This document shows, in pieces, positions 4,193-53,200 of a stretch of DNA of 64,000 nucleotides. Source of the DNA: Mytilus galloprovincialis (Eukaryota; Mollusca; Bivalvia; Mytilida; Mytilidae); contig NC_134846.1 of the NCBI RefSeq assembly GCF_965363235.1, forward strand, positions 63,725,121 through 63,789,120. Direction: 5' to 3'. A program made the position numbers and the translations under genes. Under the pieces are notes generated by a model. The model was not told the origin of the DNA and ran no database searches. It saw only the letters and a program-made list of their open reading frames with translations. The first letter of the stretch is position 1, and every line of letters starts with the position of its first letter.

Positions 4193-6098
4193 TTAGCTCA
4201 CCTGTCCCGAAGGGACAAGTGAGCTTATGCCATCACTTGGCGTCCGTCGTCGTCGTCCGTCGTCGTCGTCCGTCGTCTGTCGTCGTCTGTCGTCATAAAC
4301 TATTTCAAGAATCTTCTCCTCTGAAACTACTGGGCCATATACTTTCAAACTTTAACTGAATGTTCCTTAGGGTATCTAATTTATAAATTGTATCCGAAGT
4401 TTTGATCTATCAACAAACATGGTCGCCATTGCTAAAAATAGAACATAGGGGTCAAATGCAGTTTTTGGCTTATAACTCAAAAACCAAAGCATTTAGAGCA
4501 AATCTGACATGGGGGTAATATTGTTTATCAGGTCAAGATCTATCTGCCCTGAAATTTTCAGATGAATCAGACAACCCGTTGTTGGGTTGCTGCCCCTGAA
4601 TTGGAAATTTTAAGGAAATTTTGTTGTTTTTGGTTATTATCTTGAATATTATTATAGATAGAGATAAACTGTAAACAGGAATAATGTTCAGCAAAGTAAG
4701 ATTTACAAATAAGTCAACATGATGGAAATGGTCAGTTGACCTCTTTAGGAGTTATTGCCCTTTATAGTCAATTTTTAACCATTTTTCGTAAATCTTAGTA
4801 ATCTTTTACAAAAATCTTCTCCTCTGAAACTACTGGGCCAAATACTTCCAAACTTTAATTGAATGTTCCTTAGGGTTAATAGTTTGTAAATTGTATCTGA
4901 AGTTATGATCTATCAACAAACATGGTCGCCATTGCTAAAAATAGAACATAGGGGTCAAATGCAGTTTTTGGCTTATAACTCAAAAACCAAAGCATTTAGA
5001 GCAAATCTGACATGGGGTAATATTGTTTATCAGGTCAAGATCTATCTGCCCTGAAATTTTCAGATGAATCAGACAACCTGTTGTTGGGTTGCTGCCCCTG
5101 AATTGGTAATTTTAAGGAAATTTTGCTGTTTTTGGTTATTATCTTGAATATTATTATAGATAGAGATAAACTGTAAACAGGAATAATGTTCAGCAAAGTA
5201 AGATTTACAAATAAGTCAACATGACGAAAATGGTCAGTTGACCCCTTTAGGAGTTATTGCCCTTTATAGTCAATTTTTAACCATTTTTCGTAAATCTTAG
5301 TAATCTTTTACAAAAATCTTCTCCTCTGAAACTACTGGGCCAAATACTTTCAAACTTTAACTGAATGTTCCTTAGGGTATCTAATTTATAAATTGTATCC
5401 GAAGTTTTGATCTATCAACAAACATGGTCGCCATTGCTAAAAATAGAACATAGGGGTCAAATGCAGTTTTTGGCTTATAACTCAAAAACCAAAGCATTTA
5501 GAGCAAATCTGACGTGGGTAATATTGTTTATCAGGTCAAGATCTATCTGCCCTGAAATTTTCAGATGAATCAGACAACCTGTTGTTGGGTTGCTGCCCCT
5601 GAATTGATAATTTTAAGGAAATTTTGTTGTTTTTGGTTATTATCTTGAATATAATTATAGATAGAAATAAACTGTAAACAGCAATAATGTTCAGCAAAGT
5701 AAGATCTTCAATTAAGTCAAATTGACCAAAATTGTCAATTGACCACTTAAGGAGTTATTGCCCTTTAAAGACTTTTTTCACAATTTGTTCATCATGTTGA
5801 CTTACTTTAAAAAATCTTCTCCTTTGAAACTGCTGTATCAATTTCAGCCAAACTTAGGCTAAATGAGTTTCAGAGTATCTAGTATAAATTTTATATTTTA
5901 TTTCCTTGTATGTCAAGAAACATAGCTCCTATGGCTAAAATAGAACATAGGAGAAAATGATTATTTTTTTTGGCTTTTGAAGAAAATAGGACGATCCAAA
6001 AAACATTTAAATAAATTGAAAAGCCAAAATAATCATTGATGAGAGATTTAACCAAAAGAATTAAGGTGAGCGATTCAGGCTCTTGAGAGCCTCTTGTT
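4193..6098 (+). mobile_element. Hairpin-ended non-autonomous element, AGCTCACC family, copy 1
   Basis: The 5' end is a hairpin formed by AGCTCACCTGTCCC and GGGACAAGTGAGCT, followed by a (CGTC)n-rich tract. The 3' end is GGCTCTTGAGAGCC followed by TCTTGTT. The body holds four ~505-bp tandem units, each starting near AATCTTCTCCT (about 4310, 4812, 5313, 5814), the last strongly diverged. A second copy at 31,410-32,816 has the same ends but three units. No protein is encoded. The 3' hairpin with a short tail recalls non-autonomous Helitron-like or 'pearl' elements of bivalves, but the family is not established. It appears inserted into older repeat sequence. Confidence 0.75.
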
Positions 6099-9887: not shown

Positions 9888-12800
9888 GTTTTAGCCAGAT
9901 GGGAAGAATACTTAAGTAAACTGAGACAGTCAAAGGTATATACATCACATTTCCAAATTTTCATTTATTGTTTCAGTAATACTTTCAATTTTCATACATT
10001 TTTACAAAACTTTGAAAGATTTTATTTATTGACTTATGAATTTAACAAAGTAACACTAATTTCGCCTTTTCAGAATCTAATAGACTATGGGTAATATCAT
10101 TGTTAGTACACCAAAATGAAAAGAACGTTACATCATTAATTGAATTTCCATTGTGTTTTGACCAATTACAACGTTTTGATGTACGCTTTAAAAAATATTA
10201 CCCAGAATGTATTAGATTCCGAAACGGTGAGTTATTGTGTCATATCTAATATTAAAGTTATGTTTACTGATTGTTCTTTGTAGGAATGTGATAAGTTGCA
10301 AAAGATAAAAGAGTTGTTTCCCTTTAACAAATTCTTTGAGAATGCACCACAGCCATTATTTAAAGGTAGCACCTATGCAGAAGATATAGATATAGCTGAA
10401 GGCTGCTTTAGACATATCAAAAAGATATTCACTCAGCTTGAGGTAGGATTTGTTGTATAATTTATATATTCAATTCATATTTCTTTATGTATGAAATTTT
10501 TGTTAACAGCAATAACAGGTGTAAGTAGGTGAAGTTATAAGACTTGTACTGTCGTTAGTTAACAGTACTTACAGATGTCCTGAATGTAAAAAGATGATTA
10601 AAAAAGTAATTGTAACATTAGTGTCACCAATTTTAGGGAGGTGGCCTTGAAAAAATATTCCATATAAATACTTGGTGCTGGGATAATTGCTTCATTTTTT
10701 TACAAGTGAGTTTAATTTTTCAGAAAAATCAGCAATAAGGAACAATTTTGGGGGCAGGGATAATTGTAAAAATATCCCATATCAAATACGTTGGGTATGG
10801 TAACTAACAGCTTTAGGTTGGTGTTCATAATCATTATATTTTATATATCTATATATGATTTTGTAATTAAAAATCTGTACAATATATGTAATTTAATGAA
10901 ACAATATTCTTGGTATTTATTAGTTCCTCAATACTAGGAGGTCATTCTATAAGAAGCAAATGTCTCCATTAAAAGCTTCTATTACTGTTTCAGGAATTTC
11001 GAGCTTTTGAGTTACTTAGAAGTGGAACAGACCGAGCTGAGTATCTCCTTATAAAGGAAGCTAAGATCATTGCTATGACATGTACACATGCTGCCTTGAA
11101 GAGAAGAGATCTAGTAGCAGCAGGCTTCAAGGTAAGATTTAAATAATAACAAAAATCAATTTATACAATATGTCATAACCAGAATCACGGACAGGTCTAG
11201 TTACCATTCAACCCTGTCCATCCATAGGTCTGAAACTTATAGAGGGTACCTAGTGTTGTTTCATGCATATCTCAACTAGTTTTCCCTCAGCATTGTTCAA
11301 ACATTGCCTCCTTATTGAAGATGAGTACCACCTACACCTAGAGTTAAACTATTTGACACACTTTTCTCAGAAAATTCTTAACAAAATGACTGCACATGTT
11401 CATAATTACGAAAACATTTGAACTTACATGCTAATTAGATTTTCGAACAAGATTTTGTGTTTCACTGAACATGGAAATGGTTAAGACATATCAGAAGACA
11501 ATAATAAACTGTAGTAGTAATACATGTACTTTTAAAAGATACAAATGTGAAACTTAGAAAGCCAAATGTTTTTTCTCATTCCAGTTTGACAACATACTAA
11601 TGGAGGAAGCTGCTCAGATTTTAGAGATAGAAACTTTTATTCCACTTTTGTTACAGGTAAGTGTAGAAATCTTTATACCAAGCTTAGTTTAAGTGCAGAA
11701 ACTTATATAGCAAGAATAAAATTAGTAGCATTTCTGAAACTTTTTGAAATAAATATTCCACAAAAGATAATAACAACCCAAACCTGTCAACCTCTGAAAA
11801 TGAAAATGCAGAATATGGTTTAGGAAGACAATGTCAGGGATACCATTTACATACTTTTTTCCGTGATTTTAGTATCTAAGATAAAATTGAGAATGGAATT
11901 TTTTTCATTTTTTAAACATATACCAGTTTCCTACAAATATTTGCAATTGTAAAGTATTTGCTGAAACTATTCATGTTTTCATATTACTTCAATGTATATT
12001 TTAATTTAGAATGTTATGTTGTTGAAGTTTAAAATAGGGCACATGTAAAGTGGAGGGGAAATAATAAAACCACAAATTATTTCCTAGTGTAATTTGAGAT
12101 TTAAGGAAAGTCAAAGTTGGGTGAAAGTGATAGGTTTGACCCTTGAACTATCAAATTAAATATCCATGAAAAAATAAACCACTTTTGAGAAATTGCTCAA
12201 AATTTAGCCTTTACTCACTACTGAAATTATATAAAACAGTTTAACAATTTTTAAGTTTATGACACATATTTCACCAAATAGATGAAATTTTTGATAACAG
12301 TACTGCAGACTTATGTTCCAAATTATATATCTTTTAGAATCCTGAAGACAATATTAACAGATTAAAGAGATGGATTATGATTGGAGATCACCACCAGTTG
12401 CCTCCTGTCATCAAAAATATGGCATTCCAAAAGTTCTCTAACATGGAACAGTCATTGTTCACAAGACTTGTCAGATTGGGTGCACCTACTGTAGAACTGG
12501 ATGCCCAGGGAAGAGCTAGGGGAAGGTAACTGACAAAAAAGAACAGTTTTATTTTACAAGTGACATATTTTAAACTTAAATGAAAAAAATAATCAAAGTA
12601 TGAGTTAATTTTATTAATTTTGTCAAATTCAATGGGAAAATCTTTAAAAATAATCAATTTAAATGCTTTTGAAAAATTTACATGATAAAAAGCAGTTTTA
12701 GATTGCAGGACAACCTTCATTTCTGAGCAAAAGCCACACCATATAGTACACTTAAGTAGGTCTGACATGGCGTCATAATAAAATGTTTAAACGTATGAAT

Positions 12801-15800
12801 AATTTAGAGAAGATAAAATGTGGTTAATTGACTAATAGCATGGACAGATTTTAGCTACATTCATAAAAGATCCTCTTCACAAATGTTGTTCATAGAAACA
12901 GTAGGATAAATTCTTTCTTACATTTTAGTATTGCTAACCTGTATAACTGGAGATATAAGAAGTTAGGAAATCTACCCCATGTTATGGTGAATCAGGAATA
13001 CAGATTAACTAATGCAGGATTTGTACATGACTTCCAGTTGATTGATGTACAGAATTTTAATGGAGTTGGAGAATCAGAACCAAATCCTTACTTTTATCAG
13101 GTATGAATTGACTACATCATTTATAAGTTTGTATTCTAAAACCACAGACTTTTTTTCACATTTAGATAACCATTCTGTAGTTATCTTTATTTTGTTTGTT
13201 TAAAAAAAACTTTATTCAGGCCAATGATAGTTAAAACATCAGTGAATATATAGGTCATGCAAGTTTAAGTATACCAATGATAGGCTAAACATCAATGAAT
13301 TCATAGATTTTGAAGGTTTTAGGGAAAATGATCAGTTTAACTTCAGTAAACCCACAGGCAATGGATGTTTTAAAGGTTAGCCTTATGGCTAAGTACACAG
13401 ACAAGAGTCCCTTCTTTAGGCCCAGTTTATTGAAAATGGGTAGATTGAATCTTTATTCGAGATATTCTACTAGGTTACCATTTGGTAAGTTATGAAAGTA
13501 ATTCAGTGATAACCAGAGCTCCAGATAAGCTGCGTATTTGCGTGATCACGCAATAAAAATAATAAAAAACCCAATGCAATTGCCCATTGCAGGGTTCAAT
13601 AACCCAATTATTTCAAAGGAAAACCCAATTATTTGCCCAAACCATGAGTTCTCAACCCTTTAATTGGCTACTGTTTGCGTTATTTACCCTTATCTGTTTA
13701 CAGTCGTCGCGTAAATCTATGTTTATAATATTTATAATTGGAAATCTCCTTTCGTTCTAAAAATAGATCCCTGCATCTCTGTTGGAGTTTTCCCGTTGCT
13801 CAATAGGTACACATGTTTTTGAAAACATTTCGGTCTTCTCTGCGTTTATCCAATTAGCGTGTGTCATTTAGTCATATTTTGTTTGCATTGCTCGAGATTT
13901 ACCATAACATACATTGAATTAAAACGAAAGTGAATGTCCGGTAAAAATATTAAATAGAAGCATGTTTTCTGCTTCTTTTGAAAAGCTGAGGGAAAGTTAT
14001 GATAACAAGACTCAGCCAGTGTTTTAGGAAGCGTCAATCGAAAGCACAGGCGTGTGTGCGTACCTTCTAACGAGAACATTGCTAATAAACACAGGGTTTC
14101 GTCAAAAACGAATTCAGTTGGAAAAAGTGAAAGGCCAAATCAATTATGACATGATAAAGCATGAGAAACCAAAAGTTCTAATAAAAGACAACTAAACCCA
14201 GATTTATATAAATTGAATAAACCAAAATCATTCAAGTATAATTAGAGTTTATGTAGTATTTTTTTTCATTTTACGGTTAATTAATGAATACACACACAGG
14301 CACTGGTCTCAGAATTTATTATATAAAGGTGTAAGACGAGTGCCTGTGAATACACATATCCGTTTTTGTGAGAAAATACAAAACTGGCAGAAGGTTTGGA
14401 ACGGGACACAAATTAAACCTACAATTGCTCCTCAGTGAATAAACCAAATAAAACAGCTAGCAAATAACCCTAACCCTAACCATCAACCAAATAAAACAGC
14501 TAAACAAAGAAAGAAACATATTTAAGATGGAAAAAAATCTGGGGTTGATATTGCCTAAATATTCAATATTGTGTTGATGAAAAAACCCAATACATTCAGG
14601 AGCTTGGTGGTGAAAAACCCAATTTGATATTAACATGAGGGGTGAATTGGAATTGATAATGCAATTAAAAAACTTTATCACCCAATTATATAAGAAAATG
14701 GTGGGTAAAAAACCCAATTTGAGAATTCTTATCTGGAGCTCTGGATAACATTATTATTATATTTCAGAACTTGGCAGAAGCTGAGTATGTTATAGCAACT
14801 TTTATGTACATGAGGATGCTTGGTTACCCTGCAGAGAAAATCTCCATCTTAACTACTTACAATGGACAGAAACATCTGATCCGTGATGTGTGTAAACAGA
14901 GATGTGGAACTAATCCATTTATTGGCTTTCCTCATAAGGTAATTAGTTAATATGTAGCAGTTTAATGAAGTTGAGAATTGAACTTGAGTGTGGCTAAAAT
15001 CAGGAACTTTATAATTTCCAGTACCTGAAATTAGATTTAAACATTAACTGATTTAAAAGAAACCTATCGAAATTCAATATTTGTCTGATGTTTAAAGAAT
15101 GCTTCAGTAGTTGATATAGATATATTTGTATTCTAATCCAGTGGCAACAGCTTTATCTTAAAATACTATAAAAGTAATATAGATTCCACAACTGCAACAA
15201 GTGTATTCCGATATTTCTCCACCGGAGTCAGTTAAATTTTAATATTTAAAGAGCGAGGCTTGCAGAGCTTTTTAAATGAATTAAAATTTAACTGTTGAGA
15301 GTGGAAAAATATTGTAATACAAGAGTTACAGTGGTGGAATCTGTCGATTTTTCACTTGTGAGAAGAAATATTTTTCTCACACAGGTCAGGAAATGTGAAA
15401 ATAGCACAAAAATTAGAAAAAACCCATTCTAACATCACATTTATAAGTCCTTTTGTTGGTCTTAACCATTGAAACATTCCTGCATTTTTTACAGATACAT
15501 TTTGTAAGTCAGAATACAGGAAATCTGTATTTTGAGATTTTTTGCTTTTGAATCATGGCCAATCTTTTTATAAGAAAAAGTATTACATGTATTAGACTGC
15601 AATATGATATTGAGCTACTGACATACAAATTCTTAATAACATTGGTAACATTTTGTTTTCCAGATAACAACAGTAGATAGATACCAGGGCCAACAGAATG
15701 ATTATATCTTACTGTCCTTAGTCAGGACAAAAACTGTCGGTCATTTAAGGTAATTATATATATTACTGTCCTTAGTCAGGACAAAAACAGTCGGTCATTT

Positions 15801-18800
15801 GAGGTAATTATATCTTACTGTCCTAAGTCAGGACAAAAACAGTCGGTCATTTGAGGTAATTATATCTTACTGTCCTAAGTCAGGACAAAAACAGTCGGTC
15901 ATTTGAGGTAATTATATCTTACTGTCCTTAGTCAGGACAAAAACTGTCGGTCATTTGAGGTAATTATATCTTACTGTCCTTAGTCAGGACAAAAACTGTC
16001 GGTCATTTGAGGTAATTATATCTTACTGTCCTTAGTCAGGACAAAAACTGTTGGTCATTTGAGGTAATTATATCTTACTGTCCTTAGTCAGGACCCAAAC
16101 TGTTGGTCATTTGAGGTAATTATATCTTACTGTCCTTAGTCAGGACAATAACAGTCGGTCATTTGAGGTAATTATATCTTACTGTCCTTAGTCAGGACAA
16201 AACTGTCGGTCATTTGAGGTAATTATATCTTACTGTCCTTAGTCAGGACAAAAACTGTTGATCATTTGAGGTAATTATATCTTACTGTCCTTAGTCAGGA
16301 CAAAAACAGTCGGTCATTTGAGGTAATTATATCTTACTGTCCTTAGTCAGGACAAAAACTGTTGATCATTTGAGGTAATTATATCTTACTGTCCTTATTT
16401 AGGACAAAAACTGTCGGTCATTTGAGGTAATTATATCTTACTGTCCTTAGTCAGGACAAAAACTGTTGATCATTTGAGGTAATTATATCTTACTGGCCTT
16501 AGTCAGGACAAAAACTGTCGGTCATTTGATGTAATTATATCTTACTGTCCTTAGTCAGGACAAAAACTGTTGATCATTTGAGGTAATTATATCTTACTGT
16601 CCTTAGTCAGGACAAAAACTGTTGGTCATTTGATGTAATTATATCTTACTGTCCTTAGTCAGGACAAAAACTGTTGGTCATTTGAGGTAATTATATCTTA
16701 CTGTCCTTAGTCAGGACAAAAACTGTCGGTCATTTGATGTAATTATATCTTACTGTCCTTAGTCAGGACAAAAACTGTCGGTCATTTGAGGTAATTATAT
16801 CTTACTGTCCTAAGTCAGGACAAAAACAGTCGGTCATTTGAGGTAATTATATCTTACTGTCCTAAGTCAGGACAAAAACAGTCGGTCATTTGAGGTAATT
16901 ATATCTTACTGTCCTTAGTCAGGACAAAAACAGTCGGTCATTTGAGGTAATTATATCTTACTCTCTTTAGTCAGGACAAAAACTGTTGTTCATTTGAGGT
17001 AATTATATCTTACTCTCATTAGTCAGGACAAAAACTGTTGGTCATTTGAGGTAATTATATCTTACTCTCATTAGTCAGGACAAAAACTGTAGGTCATTTG
17101 AGGTAATTATATCTTACTGTCCTTAGTCAGGACCCAAACTGTCGGTCATTTGAGGTAATTATATCTTACTGTCCTTAGTCAGGACCCAAACTGTTGGTCA
17201 TTTGAGGTAATTATATCTTACTGTCCTTAGTCAGGACCCAAACTGTCGGTCATTTGAGGTAATTATATCTTACTGTCCTTAGTCAGGACAAAAACTGTTA
17301 GTCATTTGAGGTAATTATATTTTTGTTTTTTGGTTTTTTTTCTCAACATTTTAGTATCAATTTGACATTGTGCATGCTTATTATTCATTGTGTATGAAAT
17401 GGATGCTGGTGACATATTTTAATTGCTCATTGTTAAAAGATGACTTTTTGTGAATGTCACATGCGATGTCCCTGTTCATAAATAATGTGACTGTATTGTG
17501 TATTCGGTAAGTATATTTAGCTCTGTTGAAAGGTGTACGTAAAGACAAAAGATAAAACTATGAATTATTATCTCTCCTAAGGAAACTTATAAGAAATCTG
17601 TCATTTTTTTTTAGAAATAGACACAAATTGGTTACTTTATATAAGAACATACGTAAATAAAATAGTCTTTTATTCAGCTTTAAAGTTAATGTTAGAGGAA
17701 CATCAAAACTAATGCATTTATTTCTTATGTGTAGAGATGTACGACGTCTTATAGTAGCCATGTCCAGAGCCAGATTAGGACTGTATACTTTTGCCAGGGT
17801 GAATTTGTTTAGCAATTGTTTTGAACTGACACCAGCATTTAATCAAGTAAGTATCTCAAGAAGTCTTACATACAGTATGGTCTTTAAAGTAGTTTCCTTT
17901 ATTTTTATTTCAAAATTTGAAAAATTTGCTTCATATTTTTCACATTGTTGGTATTTTCTCCATTTGCTATATACAAGAAAATCATTTCATGAAAATTGAG
18001 CATTTACAATTATCCTTTAAACTTCAAATTTTTAATAATTAATGACACTAAATACTGTGGATTGATTTATTTTTGTGGGTACCAATTTTCTTGGTTTGAG
18101 GAAAGATTGCGTATTCATGTTTATTTGATTTCGTCTGCATGCACTCCTTTAGAAATGTTGTAATTTGATGAATATTTAAATTAGTGATTCCCCTGTACCT
18201 TCGAAATCCCCAATATTGGTATCCAAGGAATATTAATGAATCCAAGGTACCTACAAACACTTGGACAAAACCAAATGGCAAGGACTTTTATGTATGTATG
18301 GAAATTCCATTTTCATTTACTAAACAGAATATGCTGTGAACTGTAAAAAGAATACAAATCACCTAATCAATTCAAAACATTTCCACTACATGTGCATCCA
18401 CTGAATCTATCCACTTTGGAGGTAAAACATTTCCACTACATGTGCATCCATTGAATCTATCCACTTTGGAGGTAAAACATTTCCACTACATGTGCATCCA
18501 TTGAATCTATCCACTTTGGAGGTAAAACATTTCCACTACATGTGCATTCATTGAATCTATCCACTTTGGAGGTAAAACATTTCCACTACATGTGCATCCA
18601 TTGAATCTATCCACTTTGGAGGTAAAACATTTCCACTACATGTGCATCCATTGAATCTATCCACTTTGGAGGTAAAACATTTCCACTACATGTGCATCCA
18701 TTGAATCTATCCACTTTGGAGGTAAAACAGCATTCTATTCAGTTGTAAAAAATATAACTCTGATGCACATTATTAAATTATCATGGGGTATAGTAATATA

Positions 18801-21800
18801 ATTTATTTTGTGAGATAGTATGCATTAAATTGTGAAAATATCCATGTACACAATATAGATTTTATCTGTTTCAATATTAGGACTGAAAATGTCAGTATCA
18901 TGTTTTGTTGATTATGTTAGAATTACTTAAATTTCTTATTGTACTTTCAGTTGATGACCAGACCTTTACAGCTACACATTGTACCTACAGAGTCATATCC
19001 ATCTTCTAAAAAGGTAATATCACTTTTCCGAAAGTAAGAATTTGCAGTTCATAATCTTTTAGGGGTGTTCAAAGCTTCATATCTACTTGATTCAAGGTAA
19101 ATGATTCTTGTTCAAGTTCATTTCCATAGGTGTTCACAAACCATGACAGTGGCGGATTCAGAACTTTTCATAAGGGGGGCTCGCTGACTGACCTAAAGAG
19201 GGGCCTCTCTCGTCATGCTTCAGTGATTCCCTATAAAATCAACCAAATTTTTCCAACCAAAAGGTGGGGGGTGAATCCCTGGATCCGCCTATGTATGGGA
19301 TATGTACAATCCATAAAAAGAGGCCAAAGAAGCTGTCAATGAAAGGAAAAGTTAAAATAAAGTGTTTTTTTTTTTTTTTTTTTATTATTGTATGAAGATT
19401 CCCATAAGAAATTCTTATGTCCAGCTTGAAAGGTTTAAACACCAACAACCTTCAACTTAAAGTGATCAGAAATAATACTGTATCAACAAGATAACAATTA
19501 GATGTTGCAATCTAGATGGACATAATAACCTAAAAAATGACTACTTAACATTGTTAATTGAAAAGACAGTTTATCACATTCATATTCATTCATATTCTAG
19601 AAGTTCATCCCTTTGACTACATGCCTTTTACATTGTCAAAATACTGTGGATTCACTATTATTCGTTGGATACCAATTTTTCCTGGATTTCGTGGGTACAG
19701 GTGAACCACAAAATTAAATGCTCAACGAATAACAAATTTTCTTTAGGCTTGTATGCAGACTTCGGCAAAACAACGAAATTAAATATCAAAGAATATGAAA
19801 GTTTTCCTTAATCCAGGAAAATTGGTACCCACGAAAATAAATGAATCCACAGTAAACATGATACAGGATTAATTTTAATCCATACAACAATGGATTTAGT
19901 AAGCGTTAGATTTTGTTTAAGGTTGGTAGTGCTGTAAAAGAACCAGTAATGGTTATAGATGACATGGCACATATGGCACAGTTTGTTTATGATTTCTACA
20001 ATCAGAGAATTAACACCATGATGAAACAGCAGGATTTTACAGTAAGTACACCTATTATATTGCTAGCTATACATTTCTTTTAATTTTTGGCAGAAGAGAT
20101 CAAATATAAAATCATAAGTCAAACAAAAAACAGACAGCACCTTGGCAAAGATCGAAAAAAATGATGAAAATACTAAATAGTTCTCAAAATAATAAATAAA
20201 AAGGGTGACAGTTTGTCGTCATCCCAAGACATTTGGTTTTTGCACTCTAACTTTAGTAAAAGTAAATAGAAATCTATGAAATTTTAACACAAGGTTTATG
20301 ACCATAAAAGGAAGGTTGGGATTGATTTTGGGTGTTTTGGTCCCAACAGTTTAGGAATTAGTGGTCAAAAAGGGCCCAAATAAGCATTTTTCTTGGTTTT
20401 CGCACAATAACTTCAGTATAAGTAAATAGAAATCTATGAAATTTTAACATAAGGTCTATGACCACAAAAGGAAGGTTCGGATTGATTTTGGGTGTTTTAG
20501 TCCCAACAGTTTAGGAATTAGGGGCCAAAAACAGGTCCCAAATAAGCATTTTTCTTGGTTTTTGCACAATAACTTTAGTGTAAGTTAATAGAAATCTATG
20601 AAATTTTAACACAAGGTTTATGACCATAAAGGGAAGATTTGGATTGATTTTGGGAGTTTTGGTCCCAACAGTTTAGGGGCCAAAAGGGGCCAAAATTAAA
20701 CATTGTTTGATTTCATCAAAAAATGAATTATTGGGGTTCTTTGATATGCCAAATCTAACCGTTTATTCAGATTCTTAATTTTTGGTACAGTTTTTAAATT
20801 GGTCTACAGTAAGGTCCAAAGGGTCCAAAATTAAACTGAGCTTGATTTTAACAAAAATTGAATGCTTGGGGTTCTTTGATATGCTGTATCTAAACATGTA
20901 CTTAGATTTTTAACTGGATTTTTGTAACAAAAATGTCGGTTATTGATTTGGGGATGTATGGCGGTCGGGAGGCCGGGTGGGCGGCAACCAAATGTTGTCC
21001 GTGCATTAACTCATGAACCATTCAACCAAATTAAAGCTTTTCAAATTTTAATATGTTGTTACAGACAACAAAATGAAGGTCAAGTTCAATAATGATGATT
21101 TTAACTTTTACCAGTCAGGAGTTATGGTTCTTGAAAGATTGAAAAATGGCATTTCTGGTCGTGTCCGTGCATTTACGCATGAACTGTTCAACCAAAGCTT
21201 CCCAAATTTTAATATGTTGTTACTGATGACAAAATGGAGGTCAAGTTCAATAATGACGATTTTGACTTTTACCTTTCAGGAGTTATGGTTCTTGAAAGAT
21301 TGAAAAATGGCTTTTCCAGTCGTGTCCGTGCATTTACTCATGAACCATTCAACCTATGCTTTTCAAATTTTAATATGTTGATGACAAAATGGAGGTCAAA
21401 TTTGATATTGACGATTTTCACTTTCACCGTTCATCAGTTATGGTTCTTGTGATATTGGCAGGACACAAATAAATGTTAATAAATCTGGTTTGCTGTCGTT
21501 GTGACAGCCTCTTGTTGATTATGGGCCCAGTTTTCAAGTTGGTCCAAATCGGGGTCCAAAATTATTATATTAAGTATTGTGCAATAGCAAGAAATTTTCA
21601 ATTGCACAGTATTCCGCAATAGCAAGAAATCTTCAATTGCACAGTATTGTGCAATAGCAACCTAGCCCTATGTGCCATAAGGCATAGCAAGGACTAAGTA
21701 AGTAAATGAGTGCAATAGCAAGAAATTTTCAATTGCACAGTATTGCACAATAGCAAGAAATATTCAATTGCACAGTATTGTCCCGTTTTCAAATTGGTCT

Positions 21801-34403: not shown

Positions 34404-35699
34404 TTAAAAGGGCATGTGAGCCTTTTCAGGAACTTTTCTGTTAATGTTCTTGTCTGCTTGTTCCTTCGACTGTTTTTCTGTACGATCATAAGGACGTTTT
34501 AGAGTATCATGACAAAGAGTTACTCCAAATCCTGGACGATCTGGTAAATCTATAAATCCATCTTTTGGAAGTGGTTCATCTTTGAAAAGTCCGCCAAAAT
34601 ATGGTGTAATTTTGTCGGCTTTTGGACTAAGATTTATAAATTCGGCTACAGGACAATTCCGAAACGCATACTGCAGATGATAGGAATATACGCTTGATCC
34701 ATGGGGAATTATGATCGTATCATATGGAGAAGCCATGGCACACACCCGGCGCGCCTCGGTAATACCTCCGAGCCAAGTTATGTCTGGCTGAAGAATATCA
34801 ACACACCCTGCCGTAATTAGTTGCTGAAATCCGTATCTACTGTATTCATGCTCTGCGGTGGTTAACATTACGCTACTTCCACGTAAGGCGCTACGAACCT
34901 CATTATAGCCAGTATAATTATCTGGTGGTAGAAACTCTTCCATCCATTTCAGTCCGTATTTTTCAAGTTCTTTAGCCAATTTAATTGCATATGGCACAGT
35001 GAGAGCCATGTAACAGTCTAACATAAGCGGAAAGTTTGGACCAACCTTTTCTCTCCAATTCTTAAAAAACTCCACATTTTTACGGAAACCTTCATCGCCT
35101 GCTGTTGGCCCGTATGGACATGGCACTTTCGCACCGACGAAACCCAGGTCTTTGGCGATATCTGGTCGTGCTGTTGTACAGTAGACTGGAAGTCTATCTT
35201 TTGTTTTCCCTCCAAGTAAGGCATAAACTGGTTCCTTTCGGATTTTCCCTAATAAATCCCAGATAGCAATATCTACGGCACTTATTGCCTGAACAGACAA
35301 ACCTTTTCTTCCATAATTCCAGGTAGCACGAAACATTTGATCCCAAATAAGTTCAACATCTCGAGGATCTTGACCTTCGACAAAACGACTTAAATGTTTT
35401 TCAACTATATAGCATCCAGGTTCTCCTCCGATAGTAATTCCGACACCTGTCGTTCCATCCGTGGCTTCCACCTCCACAACAAGGGATCCAAGCGCATTAA
35501 TACCCCAGGATTTTCTGGTGGCTGAATACTGTTCGTAACCCGACATTGGATTAGCGACAGGGGTAGGGAAACCGTTAATCCAGTGATCGTCTTGCACATC
35601 ATGACAATCGGCTCCCTGGTCTCCTAGTGATTGCTGTTCAGTAACATAGGCTCGAACAGCTTTAATTCTTGGGAAATCTCTGCACTTATTGGTCGACAT
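34404..35699 (-). CDS. L-rhamnonate dehydratase-like enzyme, paralogue 1 (enolase superfamily)
   Basis: Intronless frame of 431 codons. The sequence matches my recollection of bacterial RhmD (DQGADCHD, NPMSGYEQY, GEPGCYIVEKHL, ARPDIAK-LGF-GAK, PHGSSVYS). Catalytic residues of the enolase fold are present: metal ligands D228, E254 and E283; general-base region with D306 and H333; H33 near the N terminus; and E353. RhmD removes water from L-rhamnonate to give 2-keto-3-deoxy-L-rhamnonate, a soluble Mg-dependent reaction. Specificity in an animal is inferred. Length fits the family (~400-430), with an extra ~25-residue tail ending EKAHMPF. A weak splice acceptor (AAAACAG) lies eight bases before the ATG, so a 5'UTR exon is possible. 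A close paralogue lies at 44,485-45,801. Animals generally lack this enzyme; horizontal origin is a reasonable hypothesis. Confidence 0.9.
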   Translation of the reverse strand: MSTNKCRDFPRIKAVRAYVTEQQSLGDQGADCHDVQDDHWINGFPTPVANPMSGYEQYSATRKSWGINALGSLVVEVEATDGTTGVGITIGGEPGCYIVEKHLSRFVEGQDPRDVELIWDQMFRATWNYGRKGLSVQAISAVDIAIWDLLGKIRKEPVYALLGGKTKDRLPVYCTTARPDIAKDLGFVGAKVPCPYGPTAGDEGFRKNVEFFKNWREKVGPNFPLMLDCYMALTVPYAIKLAKELEKYGLKWMEEFLPPDNYTGYNEVRSALRGSSVMLTTAEHEYSRYGFQQLITAGCVDILQPDITWLGGITEARRVCAMASPYDTIIIPHGSSVYSYHLQYAFRNCPVAEFINLSPKADKITPYFGGLFKDEPLPKDGFIDLPDRPGFGVTLCHDTLKRPYDRTEKQSKEQADKNINRKVPEKAHMPF

Positions 35700-38660
35700 G
35701 ATTAACCTGTTTTGTTGAATTGCAATCTGCCGATAGTTAACAGGTGTAGTTATCAGTACGTACGTGGCTATGTAAATTCATCCTATACGTATTTGTCAAC
35801 AACACGTTACCTACCAAATACTACATTTATCTATATAAAGGTATCTTATAGCTGATAAACAGATATATATAGATAGATAGGGCAATAGTTAATAGAGATT
35901 GAATAAGGAGCTCACTGAAGGTCGCACGAGTCGGTCCGATAATTTACGATGTAACAGTTAATTGAAGTTCAATGTATATAGAAACCAGTTCAAAATTATC
36001 TTACTTATAGTTTTAAATGATAATAGATTTTGTCTTTATTCATGTTTTATTGTCATTCTGTTCCACAGTCTTTGTATTACAGAAGGTTATCTAATTAGAT
36101 ATAGGAAGATATGGTATGAGTGCCATTGAGACAACTCTCCATCCAAGTCACAATTTATAAAAGTAAACCATTATAGGTAAAGGTACGGTCTCCAACACGG
36201 AGCCTAGGCTCACATCGAACAGCAAGTTATAAAGGGTCCCAAAAATTACTGGTGTAAAACCATTCAAACGTGAAAACCAATGGTCTAATCTATATAAAAA
36301 AACAAGAAACGAGAAACACTTATGAACCACATAAACAGACGACAACCAATTGCACAGTTCGTGCCACTGAAACTTGAAGTGTGCTTTTAGTCTCAGGTGC
36401 ATGATTTTTTTCTTAGTTGTAATTGACTTTGATCTAGCGGTGGGTAAATGCAATGAGTACACCCAGATCTGTGCTATGTGTTATTCTATTGTGTGGATGT
36501 ATAAGTCCCGGTCCACGTCCACTCTGTGTTTTTGTTAGATGTATTTCTATTTGCATCCATCTGATGAGTTAGGCCTTTTTCAACTGATGATTTTTATATA
36601 GTTTGTTCTTATGTTGTACTGTTGCGCTACTGTGCCAGGTTAGGGGAAGGTTTGGCGCCAACAAACTAGTTTAACCCTTCCACATTCTGTATGTGTCTGT
36701 CCAAAGTCAAGTCTGTATTTCAATGATTGTCGTTTGTTGTTGTGTAACATATTTGTTTTTCATTCATTATTTATAACATAAATTAGGCCGTTAGTTTTCT
36801 CGTTTGAATTACTTTACATTTGTCATTTTGTGGCCTCTTATACTGACAAATCGACATGGGCTTTGTTCATTAACGAAGACCACACGATGAGGTATAGTTA
36901 TCAATTTCTGTGTCATTTTGTCTCTTGTGGAAAGTTGTCTCCGTTGTCAATCATACCACATCTTCTTATTTTTATGTTCAGTAACTGCGAGTGTTCTTGA
37001 TAATAATTCTCGATAAAGTATTACCGGTTTTTAGTATTGACCAATTGTATTTGTGTTTTTGTTCGTGAGTCATCAAATTCATCGTACTAAAACTAACCGG
37101 ACATGGCTGAGTAGTTAATTTTTACATCCTACACAGCAAAACTGACACCCTCCTTAATTTTGGGTTTTACTCTCCTTAATTTTGGTTTTTACCGCCGGAT
37201 GGAATAAGTCCAGGGGAGCATATATCTCTGCACAAGTCAATCTATTGGACTATCAAAATTTCTATCATTTGGATAACAAAGCTAAAGCAAAGAAAGTACA
37301 GGGGATTTAAGTTCGATTTCCCCTTGTCCTTTTTTACTTATGCTGAGCAAACACAACGCACTTAGACGCCTAAAAAAACATTACGTAAGAAACTGTATGA
37401 AAATTGCACTTCTTGTTTTATCTATCTTCCTACAGTTGGAAATCATAATGCGCAAAAAAAAAACGAGTACAGCTTAAACGTCTTATTATAATTGTATAAA
37501 GTCCGAGATTGCAGGTTCGTTTCGTAAGTGCGTCACTGTATGGGATGTCATGTGGTGTCTGTCGTTTATTGAAGATGTCCGTTGTTGTTCAGCGATTTGC
37601 ATGTTATGCATGTTGTGTCGATTATTACATCATTTCGTATCAGTGTTCTTGATGTATTTCTGTCACGTAGTATTGTCATTTTAGCGATATTTCTTAACAT
37701 TGTCATATAAGCGGGAGGTTTGGTTAGCCATTAAACCAGTTCAGCCAACTTTTTTTTCTTCTTTCGTTTTTGTTGCACTTCATTGCTCTTGTTGTTCCTT
37801 TGTTTTCCTTTTATAGTTGATGTGTTTCCCGCGGGTTTAGTTTGTAACCCGTATTGTTTTCTCTCAATCAATTTATGACTTATGAACACCGGTATACTAC
37901 TGTTGTCTTAATTTATATGTGGCACAGCTTCTTATGTGAAGCGGCATATATGTTTTATTACAGAATGAAAAAGGTGACATGAGAAATTTAACTTGTTGAA
38001 CAATTGTTCAATGATACTTTATACTGAAATAAATGTTATTGTCTGGTCGTTTATTTAAGGCTTTTGAGGTTGCAATTTCAGGTCATTAAAATAAACTACC
38101 AGTGTTGGATATATTTAACTTAGACAGTCAGTTTTTTCTGTCGTTGAATAATTTATCAATGCATGTATTTGTACATAATTTTGTAGATGCAGCTTTATCC
38201 AGAACATAGATAAATTAAGCGGTTGCGACAAATCAGCTTACGTTCATGTCGTCTAATAGCTAACATGCAATTTCCATTCTTAGTGGCTAATGTGAATCTA
38301 TAAACAGATAAAATGAAAGTTCAAAATATGTTGACAAGTTATCTCATGTAACCAAATTAATCAGATAATCGAATTTATATATCCTTGTATATATCGAGGT
38401 TAGACTAACAACGATATCGTTGATAATAATATAAGAAATGAATAAGAGATAAATTAAGGTAAACTCACATTTATTTAGAGAGATCATGTAAGGAGATCAA
38501 AACTTAAATTATACATTCAAAACCTCATTAAAGGCGGATATTGGGTCTTCTGTTATCACTTACCTAATCCAAAGTTAAAATTGATAGATTTTCTGTATAA
38601 TTCTTCAGGTGTCCTCACATATATTTATGAAAATAAGAAGTCTTTCCTTTCCAATAAATA
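35700..38660. other. Intergenic stretch with common mussel repeats
   Basis: Probable promoter region of paralogue 1 lies just right of 35,700. 36,098-36,340 (AGATATAGGAAGATATGGTA start) and 36,470-36,980 (antisense) are pieces of the abundant repeat also seen at 40,990-41,400 and 62,990-63,160. 37,100-38,660 shows nothing recognisable beyond AT-rich sequence. Confidence 0.5.
36098..36980. repeat. Two pieces of a common dispersed repeat in opposite orientation
   Basis: The left piece shares 'GAGTGCCATTGAGACAACTCTCC' and 'AACCATTATAGGT' text with the reverse of 46,945-47,035. The right piece, read on the minus strand, shares 'AACCTGGCACAGT...' and 'CTCATCAGATGGAT' text with 41,300-41,400 and 63,060-63,150. 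Confidence 0.6.
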
Positions 38661-39800: not shown

Positions 39801-39909
39801 TTAAACCAAAACTGTATGAGAATATTTTTGAGACAATTTATTTCAAAAGACATCATTGGTACAAGGAATAACTATGGAACGCCATGACTGCCTTATGTTA
39901 ATGATCAGC

Positions 39910-40170
39910 ATTATACGCAGTGCTCACAACATTATATGCAGTGCTCACACCATTATATGCAGTGCTCACACCATTATATGCGGTGCTCACACCATTATAT
40001 TAAGTGCTCACAACATTATATTAAGTGCTCACAACATTATATTAAGTGCTCACATCATTATACGCAGTGGTCCAAACATTATATGCAGTGGTCACAACAT
40101 TATATGAAGTGGTCATAACATTATATGAAGTGCTCACAACATTATATGAAGTGGTCACAACATTATACGT
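39910..40170 (+). repeat. 21-bp tandem array, left arm, ~12 copies
   Basis: The unit is ACATTATATGCAGTGCTCAC plus one A, with variants GAAGTGGTC, TTAAGTGCTC and CAGTGGTC. Because 21 is divisible by three the array reads as an open frame (QHYMQCS-like), which is not evidence of a gene. Confidence 0.95.
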
Positions 40171-40989
40171 TTTTTGTTGTATGATGAGATTGATGTATGA
40201 TGAGATCATTCGGTAAACTTCGTTTTTTAGCGGAAATTACCGAATCCATAATTGGTAAATTACGGTAATGCCCAGCAAACAAATTTAAACAGTTATTAAA
40301 GTCATGTTATCATAAGGCAGTATACAATATTTAAAACTGATTGAAATAAGTAAGGAAAAGATGAAACTAAGAGGTGAATGATTGAAGTAGTTCTGTTCGT
40401 CGTAAGAAATACGAATGGCAAAATATAAGTTAAATAATAAAATGTTTATTTAATGAAATATCGAAGGAAAATTTGTATGATATATTCCTCGAGTTCATTT
40501 CCTACTGAAGAACTTTAGCAAGGTGCCACTTTATAGTCCGTACTCAGTTTTAAAAAGCTTAATTACCTTTTAAATAAAACAGTCAGCTTTCTATAACACA
40601 TAAGTGCCATTATTACGCTAGCTTATATATGTCATGATAGAGTCATTTTTGGCATCGATTTTCAGAATTTGGCATTTTTACATGAATAAGTATCTAACAG
40701 ATATGGAAAATGCAGTTTAAAGCATTTCCTTGTAGGTGTTTAACATAACTTTACATCAATTATTCCATTTTTTTACAAGCTTTTTAGCACGCCAAGTAGT
40801 TTGTCTTCTAAGTATGATCAGCAGTCTTATATAGAAATATAAACTTTCATAAGAAAAATTTACTCTTTCAAGACCCAGTTTAACATCTTCATTTAAAGTT
40901 ATCATCTCTTATGAAAACTGAGTTTGTGGGGATGAATAAAACGTTTACTTAGTACTACGTTTGTTCGTCAGTTTGCACGGTTAATATAT

Positions 40990-43632: not shown

Positions 43633-43950
43633 AATAAAGATTTAAATATAATTTTATATATATATTAAGTTGTGAATATGGTGAAACTGATCCTCAAAAT
43701 AAGTTTAAACTGCCCTGGTGTGGAATAAATTTGTGTTAAATTGATCATACTTCTTAATTTACTTATTTCAATCGGTTTTAAATATTGTATACTGCCTTAA
43801 TGATAACATATATAATAATAACTGTTGAAATTTGTTTGCTGGGCATTAATTTACCGTAATTTACCAATTATGGATTCGGTAATTTCCGCAAAAAACGAAG
43901 TTTACCGAATGATCTCATCATACATCAATCTCATCATACAACAAAAAACG

Positions 43951-44441
43951 TATAATGTTGTGATCACTTCATATAATGTTGTGAGCACTTCATATAATGT
44001 TTTGACCACTTCATATAATGTTGTGACCACTGCATATAATGTTTGGACCACTGCGTATAATGTTGTGAGCACTTAATATAATGTTGTGAGCACTTAATAT
44101 AATGTTGTGAGCACTGCATATAATGGTGTGAGCACTGCATATAATGCTATGAGCACTGCATATAATGTTGTGAGCACTGCATATAATGTTGTGAGCACTT
44201 AATATAATGTTGTGAGCACTTAATATAATGTTGTGAGCACTGCATATAATGTTGTGAGCACTGCATATAATGATGTGAGCACTGCATATAATGATGTGAG
44301 CACTGCATATAATGTTGTGAGCACTTAATATAATGTTGTGAGCACTTAATATAATGTTGTGAGCACTTTATATAATGTTGTGAGCACTGCATATAATGTT
44401 GTGAGCACTGCATATAATGTTGTGAGCACTGAATATAATGC
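43951..44441 (-). repeat. 21-bp tandem array, right arm, ~23 copies
   Basis: Same unit as the left arm, inverted (TATAATGTTGTGAGCACTGC plus A). It has about twice as many copies as the left arm, so the arrays have changed length independently since insertion. It lies in the 3' flank of rhamnonate dehydratase 2. Confidence 0.95.
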
Positions 44442-44484: not shown

Positions 44485-45801
44485 TTAAAACGGCATATGC
44501 GCTTTCTCTACAACAGCCTTCTTAATATTTCGGTCTGCTTGTTCTTGGCTTTGTTCCTCTGTTCTCTGATAGGGACGTCTGAGTGTATCACGACAAAGAG
44601 TTACACCAAACCCAGGACGATCTGGTAAATCAATGAATCCATCAGCTGGCAGAGGTTCATCTAGGAAAAGACCACCAAAGTATGGGGATATTGTATCAGC
44701 CTTTGGACTTACATCGATAAATTCAGCAACGGGACAGTTTTGAAAAGCATATTGAAGATGATATGAATACACACTTGATCCATGAGGAATTATCATAATA
44801 TCAAAGGGAGATGCCATTGCGCACACCCTACGTGCTTCGGTAATGCCTCCGAGCCAAGTGATGTCTGGCTGAAGAATATCTACACATCCTCTTGAAATTA
44901 ACTGTTCAAATCCATACCGGCTGTATTCATGTTCTCCTGTAGTAAGAAGAACAGTACTGCCGCGCGTTGAGTTGCGAACATCGCTGTATCCAATGTAATT
45001 ATCTGGCGGAAGACATTCTTCGATCCACTTTAATCCATATGTTTCTAGTGCCTTTGCAAGTTTGATACTATACGGTACAGTCAATGCCATGTAACAGTCT
45101 AACATTAGAGGAAAATCTGGTCCGACCTTATCCCGCCAGTTCTTGAAAAATTCTACATTCTTACGAAAACCTTCATCCCCAGCTGATAGACCATAAGGAC
45201 ACGTGACCTTTGCTCCTACAAATCCAAGCTCCTTTGCAATGTCTGGTCTCGCTGTCGTGCAATAAACAGGGAGTCTCTGTTTCGTTTTACCGCCAAGTAA
45301 GGCATATACTGGCTCTTGTCTAATTTTTCCAAGCAAATCCCAAAGAGCAAGATCAACTGCGCTTATTGCTTGTACTGATAATCCTTTCCTACCGTAATTA
45401 CACGTCGCCCGAAACATCTGGTCCCACATCAGTTCGACATCTCTGGGATCCTGACCTTCAATGAACCGACTAAGATGATGTTCCACTATATAGCATCCAG
45501 GTTCTCCAACAACTGAGATACCCACACCAGTCGTACCATCAGTGGCTTCAACTTCGACAACTAAGGAGCCAAGTGCGTTCATGCCCCATGATTTTGTTCT
45601 GGCTGCATACTGATCATATCCAGACATAGGATTTGCAATTGGTGTTGGATAGCCATTTATCCAGTGCTGATCATCAACGTCATGACAGTCTGCTCCTTGG
45701 TCTTTTCCGTTGTCATCACTGGCTTTGTTGTCAGAAATGTAAGCTCGGACTGCTTTTATACGAGGAAATTTCCGACAGGTTGTCTTATTAATAGTAGCCA
45801 T
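44485..45801 (-). CDS. L-rhamnonate dehydratase-like enzyme, paralogue 2 (enolase superfamily)
   Basis: Intronless frame of 438 codons, closely similar to the gene at 34,404-35,699 across its whole length. Longer N terminus with an acidic insert (SDNKASDDNGKDQGADCHD). Active-site segments are complete: LMLDCYM, WIEECLPPD, LTTGEHEYS (the canonical GEH; paralogue 1 has AEH), LQPDITWLGG and IPHGSSVYS. Expected role is Mg-dependent dehydration of L-rhamnonate or a related sugar acid in the cytosol. A TTTTTTCAAG acceptor-like string lies 11 bases before the ATG. The stop codon (44,485-44,487) is two bases from the target duplication of the foldback-like element, so the normal 3'UTR and poly(A) site have been displaced or replaced. 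Confidence 0.9.
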   Translation of the reverse strand: MATINKTTCRKFPRIKAVRAYISDNKASDDNGKDQGADCHDVDDQHWINGYPTPIANPMSGYDQYAARTKSWGMNALGSLVVEVEATDGTTGVGISVVGEPGCYIVEHHLSRFIEGQDPRDVELMWDQMFRATCNYGRKGLSVQAISAVDLALWDLLGKIRQEPVYALLGGKTKQRLPVYCTTARPDIAKELGFVGAKVTCPYGLSAGDEGFRKNVEFFKNWRDKVGPDFPLMLDCYMALTVPYSIKLAKALETYGLKWIEECLPPDNYIGYSDVRNSTRGSTVLLTTGEHEYSRYGFEQLISRGCVDILQPDITWLGGITEARRVCAMASPFDIMIIPHGSSVYSYHLQYAFQNCPVAEFIDVSPKADTISPYFGGLFLDEPLPADGFIDLPDRPGFGVTLCRDTLRRPYQRTEEQSQEQADRNIKKAVVEKAHMPF

Positions 45802-46162
45802 TTTACAACCAACCTTGAAAAAATGATAAATAAGTATAATAATTTTTGTGTGAGATAACGTACGTATGCCATCTCACGGACAGCAAAGTTTGTGATAAAC
45901 AGATAAATAATTTCCTTAACAGGTTAACCAAAGGGTCGGAAATGCTTGTCGATCATGTAACCAACATTTCCTACGAACAACACGTTTCCCCTCTCACTCT
46001 GTGAGGAATTTATTGAAAAAGTAATTAAGACATATTAATCAAAGCTTCCTTTACTAATTAATTCAAATCAGAAAACTAACGGCCGAAAATAGATGCCAAT
46101 TTAATATTCTATACTTTTAAAAGAAAATTCATATTTTTGCTAGCGTAAAATTTATAGCCTTT
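45802..46162. other. Upstream region of rhamnonate dehydratase 2
   Basis: Probable promoter and 5'UTR of the minus-strand gene. AT-rich; no clear TATA box at a defined distance and no other gene was seen. Confidence 0.4.
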
Positions 46163-50253: not shown

Positions 50254-53200
50254 ATAAATTTATTCTTATGTTCTAATTCGCCAAGCTTAGCCGAACATAA
50301 ATTATTTAGTCAATAAAACTCAACACATGTATACTATATATAGAAATGAGCTCTCCTTGTGAGTAGCACACTTTCATACTTTATTTTTTTCTTTTCAAAC
50401 ATCAAAACCAATGCATATATTCATATTTCAATATTCATTCAAATGTTCATCTGCATCTAATAACTCATCCAAGAAAATCACACATGTCAAGTTTCCTCAA
50501 TACAACAAAGTCCGTATCGGGATTCCATCCAACTAAAAATCAAAATCAACAACAATCTACATTATTATTACAATTTATCTTGTCACATCATTAAACTGTC
50601 TAACTCAAATCTATCAAATGGGTGGGGTGGGGTGGGGTGGGGGATATGTATAACGAAACGGAAGGTACGCTACTCGGAAAGGCAGAACGTCGAATAACTG
50701 GTTATTATTTATAAGATTCTGCACGAGAATCACGATCCTACCCTCATACAAACGGGTAGGATACCTGCATTGCGACATACAATAAACAATCAAATCATAC
50801 AATAACAAACCAGGTATGCAACCATGTGCTCATCAACACGTGTTGCACATAAACAAACATAGACATGTGCTTCCGATACTATTAATAAATATATTTATAT
50901 TCTAATTCGCCAAGCTTAACCGAACATAAATTATTTAGTCAATAAAACTCAACACATGTATACTATATATAGAAATGAGCTCTCCTTGTGAGTAGCACAC
51001 TTTCGAAATGACGAAGTAGATAAGAAAAACGGGTATGAAAATTACAAGCCAATTAAGATTCTTAGTAACGAGTAGTTTTTCAGAAATGTTTTCACGCACA
51101 TATCCGTCTTTTGCTGTATCTGAAGACCATCTACCGTGTTTCTTAAATATTCTATCTTGAATACCAGCAGCAGCCGCAGCTGTTGTTCCACCTGCTCTTA
51201 AACTATGCAAACCAAATTTTGATTTGTCTAATCCCAAAGATTCTAAAGCCTCTAACAGTACTTCTCTGGCTCTTGTATAAGATAAAGGTGTATGACCCCT
51301 TAGCACGTACATGTTAGTCTTTTTACGATATACAACTGATCTAAACATGAATTCTATAGAATCGTGTTTAATGTTCGCTTGGTTCAAGTATGTCTCTAAC
51401 ATTTGAACTGGACAGGTTACCGAATATGTTTTGGAAATATAAACATGAGTTCCTGCTCTTTGTTGGTCCGTTTTGCTTTTTTTCGATGAATAAAGACATA
51501 TATAATGAATGAAATGAAACATCTAACCTTTTTAGATTAACTAATTCTGAAAATCCTAAAAATCCGGCATAGCTAACGAGACACATACATGCTATTCTTC
51601 TGTGGTTTAAAGTACTATTTGTATTGCCATATTTCAAAACCAGTTGATTAAGAATATAAGGAGTTATTGGTTCCTTCTTGTTTACAATGTGATGACCGAT
51701 TGACCTTTGGGTACCTTCTTTTACGGAAGTACAAAGGAAAGAATCACAAGGATTTACATATCCAGCTAATTTTTGTGTCCATTGAATGGCATAATATGCT
51801 TCATCTATCTTTGCAAAAGAACTATAATTTTTTCGTAAGTGAATCAAATATAATGAGACATTATAATCTGATGCCGGTAAAGGCTTTATATTAAATAAAT
51901 TACACCATTTACAAAATCTATTAAATGCATACCTGTATTTCTTTCTAGTATTATCAGCTCTAGAATTTAAACAATAATCTGGAAGACATTTTGCAAGGTT
52001 GCGAAGAGCTTCATTCTGTGGCATATTATCCTTAGACCAACGACCAGTACTAAAAACATCTGCAAAACGTATAAATAAAATAAACAAATAATAACATTAT
52101 AAAACTTTTTTTTTAATTTTTTTTCTCATGTATATCGTACTAGTCACTAGACCTTGCTATATCAACATATATAGCCGTGTCAGAATCAAATTTGCATTAC
52201 AATGCAAATTTCCCATATTGTAAACAATTAACAATATGTACATATAAATTCGAACATGATTAAGTCGCTTTCATCTTAATTGCCAGTATATCAGACTTAA
52301 AATGCTTGGTACCAAAAATGGAGTTTTTATTCTGTCCTTGAATAAATATATTTTGACCGGATGAAAAATCAAGAACTTCTCTAACGTAAGGTTGAAATTC
52401 CAATCTTCTGTTAAAAATCAAAGACCAAAATGCCGATGATGGTCATTTTGGAACGATCAATGTTCCCTCAGCTCTACAGAGAATGAGGTGTTTAATGCTT
52501 TAAGCCACTAAACTTATCGGAGGAACCATCCAATTATTTTCCAATGTCCAATTTTGAGCGAAAGCGTCAATAGCAGTGCTTCCTGGATTCCAAAATTTTG
52601 AGTTAAACCTTTTCAATTTTGTATTATGAAAATTAGCAAATCTATCTATTGTGTAAGGACCCCAAATTTCATTCATGAAAGTAAAAAACTGAAACGAGGT
52701 TTGCCAGTAATCAATATCAACCATTTTAGATATGAAATCAGCTTTGAAATTTTCACACCGAGGTATCCAAGTAGGACACAACGTGATACCCGACCTTGTA
52801 CATATTCTAAAGATATCATAAGCTAAATGTTGTATATGTAACTTTGTACTGCCTTTATTGATTATATTTACACAATTTTGGTTGTCTGTATGCCATTTAA
52901 CTATTTTACATTTCAGATCGGGTTCAAACGAATTCAACGATAACTGAATAGCCCTGAGTTCACGCCAAGTGGAACTCAATTTTTCACATTTTCATTCAAC
53001 ATACAATGACAAATCTTTTCATTCGATTCAACAGTATATGAACCTAAAGCTACATTACTTGCATCTGAATATACCATAATATCGGTACAGAATCATTCAA
53101 TAAACGCTTCTCGTTAAGCGCCAACAAATTTTTCTGCCAAAATTTCAATTCAGCTAATACACATTGTTCATATACTAAATATAGTTTTGAATCCCATGTT

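Follow-up and report, generated by a model that had tools for sequence, protein, structure and literature searches.

A tandem array of exon-derived, donor-like sites directly downstream of a 5' splice site in the AQR gene of Mytilus galloprovincialis

The AQR Locus

The window analysed here is a stretch of 64,000 nucleotides of the Mytilus galloprovincialis genome (assembly GCF_965363235.1, contig NC_134846.1, positions 63,725,121 to 63,789,120 of the forward strand). It contains exons of a gene that had been named AQR in a preliminary description, and the comparison with human Aquarius supports this identification. The AQR exons of the window, all located on the plus strand, were labelled A to J, with J preceding I (Table 1). 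A phmmer search matched the peptide of exon G to human Aquarius (5mqf_U, 1257–1284) with an E-value of 2.9e-10; the peptides of the exons neighbouring exon G align to Aquarius in order, exon I only weakly, and exons F, G, H, J and I splice into a single open frame. Exon G encodes 28 residues plus (R) and ends in phase 2 (TTA AG/, the slash marking the cut). The next exon, H, carries a 10-residue stretch that we take to be helicase motif VI.

Table 1. Positions of the AQR exons, the array and related features in the window
Feature	Position	Strand	Remarks
Exon A, AQR	ends at 10442	+	
Exon B, AQR	10994–11131	+	
Exon C, AQR	11585–11656	+	
Exon D, AQR	12338–12525	+	
Exon E, AQR	12929–13100	+	
Exon F, AQR	14768–14938	+	ends AAG/GTAATT
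Exon G, AQR	15664–15749	+	phmmer match to human Aquarius; open spliced frame
Exon stretch copied into the unit, 49 bases	15701–15749	+	from unit alignment; begins with ATTATAT (15701–15707)
True donor, AAG/GTAATT	15750–15755	+	from sequence and frame
In-frame TAA inside the true donor	15751–15753	+	terminates the products of all 30 later donors and that of the retained intron
30 tandem units	15750–17310	+	52 bp; followed by donor-like GAG/GTAATT (27) or GAT/GTAATT (3)
Final GTAATTATAT	17311–17320	+	probably the original intron start; 17314–17320 is ATTATAT
Exon H, AQR	17735–17846	+	next exon after the array-bearing intron
Comparison array, next intron	18374–18729	+	50 bp × 7.1 (TRF); seven GAG/GTAAAA, one per unit
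Exon J, AQR	18951–19013	+	
Exon I, AQR	19922–20041	+	weak match, 0.6 bits

Structure of the Array

TRF analysis revealed an array with a period of 52, 31.1 copies and 95% matches (15701–17320), which starts inside exon G at the exon–intron border and contains a donor-like site in each unit. The unit consists of the last 49 bases of the exon followed by the GTA of the donor; its composition of exon end plus donor had been recognised before, but the copied exon part is longer than the approximately 44 bases proposed then. Thirty full units follow exon G, none skipped, with a spacing of 52 bp except for the first (54) and the ninth (51), in agreement with the earlier estimate of about 30 exon-derived copies directly 3' of the true AQR donor. 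Counting the true donor, GTAATTATAT is found 31 times, from 15750 to 17311, at all of the boundaries. A search with the 52-base consensus, allowing up to three mismatches, yielded 27 matches and none in 100 shuffles, and GAGGTAATT has no other occurrence on either strand of the window. Rfam searches of the whole window gave no matches at gathering scores. A protein-coding role of the array was rejected, as the exon frame is closed by a TAA where the first unit begins.

The array comes from a single assembled sequence, and an error in its presence or length would be an artefactual explanation; since the copies vary in 17 columns (18 if the exon unit is counted), show block structure and are not identical units, such an error appears extremely improbable.

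The following intron contains a second, shorter array with its own donor-like sites (Table 1). An exon origin of that array was considered and rejected: its peptide PLHVH is slightly AQR-like, but the alignment score is 28 for the array versus 73 for the real exon at 18951–19013. This array has no exon source; therefore, intronic donor-like repeats also arise in other ways.

Donor-like Sites and Predicted U1 Pairing

GAG/GTAATT is present in 27 of the 30 copies, and the other three, at 16531, 16635 and 16739, carry GAT/GTAATT, so that the claim that the copies keep the GAG form holds for all but these three. The description of the copies as the exon's own 5' splice site is correct except at position −3, since the true donor reads AAG. 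Position −3, A in the exon and G in all 30 copies, is the sole fixed difference between them, and the change is silent in the exon; the chance of a single fixed change falling at this position is 1 in 52, which is no more than suggestive. The donor type itself is normal in AQR, for AAG/GTAATT also closes the preceding exon F, and in the small sample of ten AQR donors, four (D, F, G and J, all with AAG before the cut) lack G at +5.

The predicted U1 duplex has an energy of −6.6 kcal/mol for the true donor, −6.7 kcal/mol for the GAG copies and −1.4 kcal/mol for the GAT form. The expectation of many competing donors is thereby borne out at the level of predicted pairing, with 27 of the 30 copies equal to the true donor, and in this model U1 pairing alone does not have the power to mark the first donor among the 27 GAG copies.

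Predicted Products of Downstream Donors

Each of the 31 donors was spliced in silico to exon H, and the products were translated. Only the first donor gives an open frame; the products of the other 30 donors, as well as full retention of the intron, stop at one and the same TAA (15751–15753), because exon G ends in phase 2 and the reading continues as TTA AGG TAA. The preliminary description saw the cost of a late donor in a shift of frame, 52 not being a multiple of three. This is not what the translations indicate: all 30 alternatives end at that TAA regardless, including the 10 whose added length divides by three. Every decoy product is thus poison, whatever the copy number. The stop falls 50–1557 nt ahead of the next junction in these products, and exon H is untranslated in all of them; only the first donor yields the full-length protein because all others leave the TAA directly after the exon.

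The boundaries between units could, in principle, also be read in the opposite sense, serving first as acceptor and then as donor, and RNA spliced at a late donor, or the whole array, would then be trimmed back to the first donor in steps of about 52 nt. AG/GT is present at 28 of the 31 boundaries, a cut from the first donor to any of 27 downstream boundaries re-forms AAG/GTAATT, and, on paper, 27 of the 30 late-donor mRNAs become normal mRNA after one such cut; moreover, tandem arrays bounded by AG/GT are spliced in either function in human UBC, according to the portion of the study available (PMC10809524). The acceptor context argues against such trimming. In the one unit measured, the pyrimidine fraction before the boundary is 0.53, compared to 0.59–0.76 in nine real AQR acceptors, and a better acceptor-like site, CTTAG/TC, lies inside the same unit (0.76); the 28-nt piece that would be inserted from that acceptor runs to a stop in the four units inspected. 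The three GAT boundaries cannot act as acceptors at all. Stepwise trimming is considered unlikely.

Probable Origin and Homogenisation of the Array

The heptamer ATTATAT is found at both ends of the array, at 15701–15707 and at 17314–17320, where the array meets the unique intron sequence. The chance of this 7-bp microhomology is about 1.3e-4 at the composition of the window, and when the last 60 exon bases were compared with the first 20 intron bases at nine other AQR donors, matches reached a length of 6 at most. Removal of the array would leave an intron of 424 nt; of the other eight AQR introns measured, five span 403–725 nt, and three span 908, 1104 and 1667 nt. These features of the sequence point to an origin by tandem duplication across the exon–intron border, in which the ATTATAT shared by the AQR exon and the intron start, as the array ends suggest, may have let a 52-bp duplication carry the exon end together with the donor.

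Among the 30 copies, an average of 3.2 of the 52 positions differ; of the 435 pairs, 19 are identical, and 17 of the 52 columns are variable among the copies (18 counting the exon unit). Blocks recur within the array: copies 2–3 equal copies 21–22, and a variant alternates in copies 10, 12, 14 and 16. Because of these block patterns and the low divergence, we infer that the duplication was followed by unequal exchange; this process, or slippage, would have expanded the unit to 30 copies and kept the copies alike. A search for an exact 24-base pattern found no matches in a collection of genome contigs. With a 16-base pattern, 95 stretches were retrieved from viral contigs; in view of the shortness of this pattern, they were regarded as chance matches.

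The array may also have traded sequence with its source exon, through gene conversion or repeated re-seeding, in which case the copies would partly record past alleles of the exon. Copies 4, 5 and 20 are the same as the exon unit except at −3, and the distinct substitutions tilt towards silent ones (10 of 19 versus 5.2 expected with the kinds of base change fixed, one-sided P = 0.004), also in four reduced sets (P = 0.009–0.058), although the test was post hoc, on small numbers and on events that are not independent. A variant common to four copies creates a stop, which rules it out as a former functional allele of the exon, and the fixed difference at −3 implies that any exchange was incomplete. 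Such exchange is a possibility, albeit a somewhat doubtful one. It is compatible with a border minisatellite that arose by duplication.

Except at the edge of copy 1, which is ambiguous, positions +1 to +6 are invariant, and this conservation is not significant (P = 0.08–0.14 for +1 to +6; P = 0.13–0.23 for −3 to +6), so that no significant selection on the decoy donors was detected in these tests. The conservation of the donors across copies is no evidence of function; recent homogenisation suffices.

This result bears on the idea that the array acts as a regulator, in which the use of decoys would commit a fixed proportion of AQR transcripts to nonsense-mediated decay, possibly depending on the level of AQR or U1. 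The same early stop produced by every decoy would suit this role, and splicing factors that control themselves via poison splicing are already in print, judging from the parts of those reports that were accessible. Apart from the lack of significant selection, the donor-like array in the next intron, which has no exon origin, speaks against the idea. Poison self-control of AQR is not reported in the accessible parts of the literature matches listed, and the authors of the UBC study, in the part of the article consulted, found no feedback regulation (PMC10809524). A regulator of this kind seems quite improbable.

Possible Choice of the First Donor

The explanation that is probably correct is a tolerated intronic minisatellite at the exon border, born by tandem duplication and homogenised, with some leakage of transcripts to decay. 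The pre-mRNA carries 31 donor-like sites, 28 of them nearly equal and only the first productive. The first donor may win by being transcribed first and by defining a short, normal exon, with position −3 and RNA accessibility giving it small advantages at most; some use of decoys, leaking to decay, would be expected.

Among the 31 donors, the first ranked 1, 8, 5, 1, 2 and 1 for 9-nt opening in six folding windows and 3, 2, 2, 1, 2 and 1 for mean unpaired probability. Its predicted gain in accessibility is small, varies with the size of the folding window and may be an edge effect, since the last donor is also above the mean in all six. The opening probability of the first donor (0.02–0.04 in the two folding windows compared) lies within the range of eight other AQR donors (0.005–0.144). 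The fold of the exon plus the first unit hardly surpasses that of shuffled sequences, with a z-score of −1.10 and 30 of 200 shuffles as good, and that of two internal units has a z-score of −1.92, with 10 of 200. RNA structure as the choosing device was rejected, because the first donor and an internal decoy both lie in predicted hairpins with no clear separation.

When two 5' splice sites are equal, the intron-proximal one usually wins, and this preference would favour the last copy, against the first donor. The case of DOK7 also counts against the first donor, with the intron-proximal site preferred there, but in the portion of the paper seen that site is also the stronger one (PMC5585400).

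A link between the array and the function of AQR itself on introns is suggestive only. No mechanism tying this action to the array was found, and the connection may be a neat coincidence.

Relation to Known Systems and Implications

In 1995, Turri, Cuin and Porter (NAR 23:1854) reportedly described a minisatellite of the human IFI6 gene that contains multiple splice donors. The IFI6 unit is said to be 12 bp long and in frame, and the products to be protein variants. The AQR unit differs in its length of 52 bp with 49 coding bases and in that every decoy leads to a stop. The two cases are alike in that a minisatellite offers several donors to one transcript, those of AQR being predicted sites; in IFI6 (6-16, G1P3), two downstream minisatellite units serve as donors, so that three mRNAs arise, according to the section of the article available (PMC4526556).

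Human UBC and VCX3A, insofar as they are covered by the accessible text (PMC10809524), likewise have tandem units bounded by AG/GT, as potential 5' or 3' sites, the AG/GT at 28 of the 31 AQR boundaries corresponding to this pattern. In the same text, each UBC unit is a complete coding monomer whose length divides by three, and the products are in frame, whereas the AQR units are intronic, 52 bp long and poison if retained, each retained unit bringing in the TAA at 15751. The part seen of a work on intron gain by tandem duplication (PMC4974935) describes how the duplication of a border copies splice signals; AQR differs in needing no new intron, the existing one being lengthened by about 1.56 kb. 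Ratchet points of recursive splicing also juxtapose acceptor and donor, as outlined in the passages available (PMC8605326), but in AQR the acceptor context is weak and 1.6 kb would contain 27 such points. Minisatellites are also present in introns of an earthworm gene, which has no exon-border array in the part of the report covered (PMC12783039). The AQR array was not found in print within the open-licence literature searched. The AQR case combines known elements: the array is exon-derived, numbers 30 copies, makes all decoys poison and lies in a spliceosome gene.

A far-reaching combination of the readings given above would be a self-healing poison array of variable length, in which 27 dual-use AG/GT sites behind one productive donor set the amount of AQR mRNA, late products are decayed or re-spliced in steps of 52 nt, and the array trades sequence with its source exon. 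This combination is very improbable; if it were true, the length of the allele would tune the level of the spliceosome helicase AQR.

The array represents a natural case of 5' splice-site competition, with one productive donor against 27 near-identical and three weakened (GAT) decoys at 52-nt spacing, where the wrong choice of donor always has the same, easily counted outcome. It also suggests how an intron can lengthen when the border with its exon is copied into it, the reading frame being left intact because the first donor keeps its place.

Splice-site-like motifs of the AQR tandem arrays

The stretch of the AQR exon that was copied into the intronic 52-bp units (15701-15749) contains an acceptor-like site, CCTTAG/TC, and a reading of the unit list found the same site in 22 of the 30 units; its pyrimidine count, measured in one unit, equals that of the best of nine real AQR acceptors. 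Another intronic tandem array is located in the next AQR intron, where a 50-bp unit is repeated 7.1 times with 99% matches. This array is not exon-derived, and GAG/GTAAAA is present in all of its units (7/7).

Other features of the region

The predicted 513-aa protein resembles a TRIM-type protein. The three direct copies at 4283-5814 show 86–98% likeness to the reference copies. The reverse transcriptase ORF lies close to the ORF with the Dam methylase match (region 52503-54111). The inverted arms, each 323 nt long, are 96% complementary and 3661 nt apart; they may be a mobile element, or else the outcome of inverted duplication. The two MR_MLE ORFs may be a duplicated gene pair.

Positions of the features within the window
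Feature	Position	Strand	Remark
ORF, 513 aa	173-1711	minus	NHL repeat above its cut-off; B-box match below cut-off
Unit of ~500 bp, three direct copies	4283-5814		Upstream of AQR exons found
Second AQR intronic array	18374-18729		
Two long ORFs	34407-35777 and 44488-45873	minus	Mandelate racemase/enolase superfamily (MR_MLE)
Two 21-bp minisatellites	39906-40228 and 43890-44212		Located in inverted arms
ORF	52503-52991	minus	Match to a Dam methylase family, under cut-off
Reverse transcriptase ORF	53431-54111	minus	RVT_1
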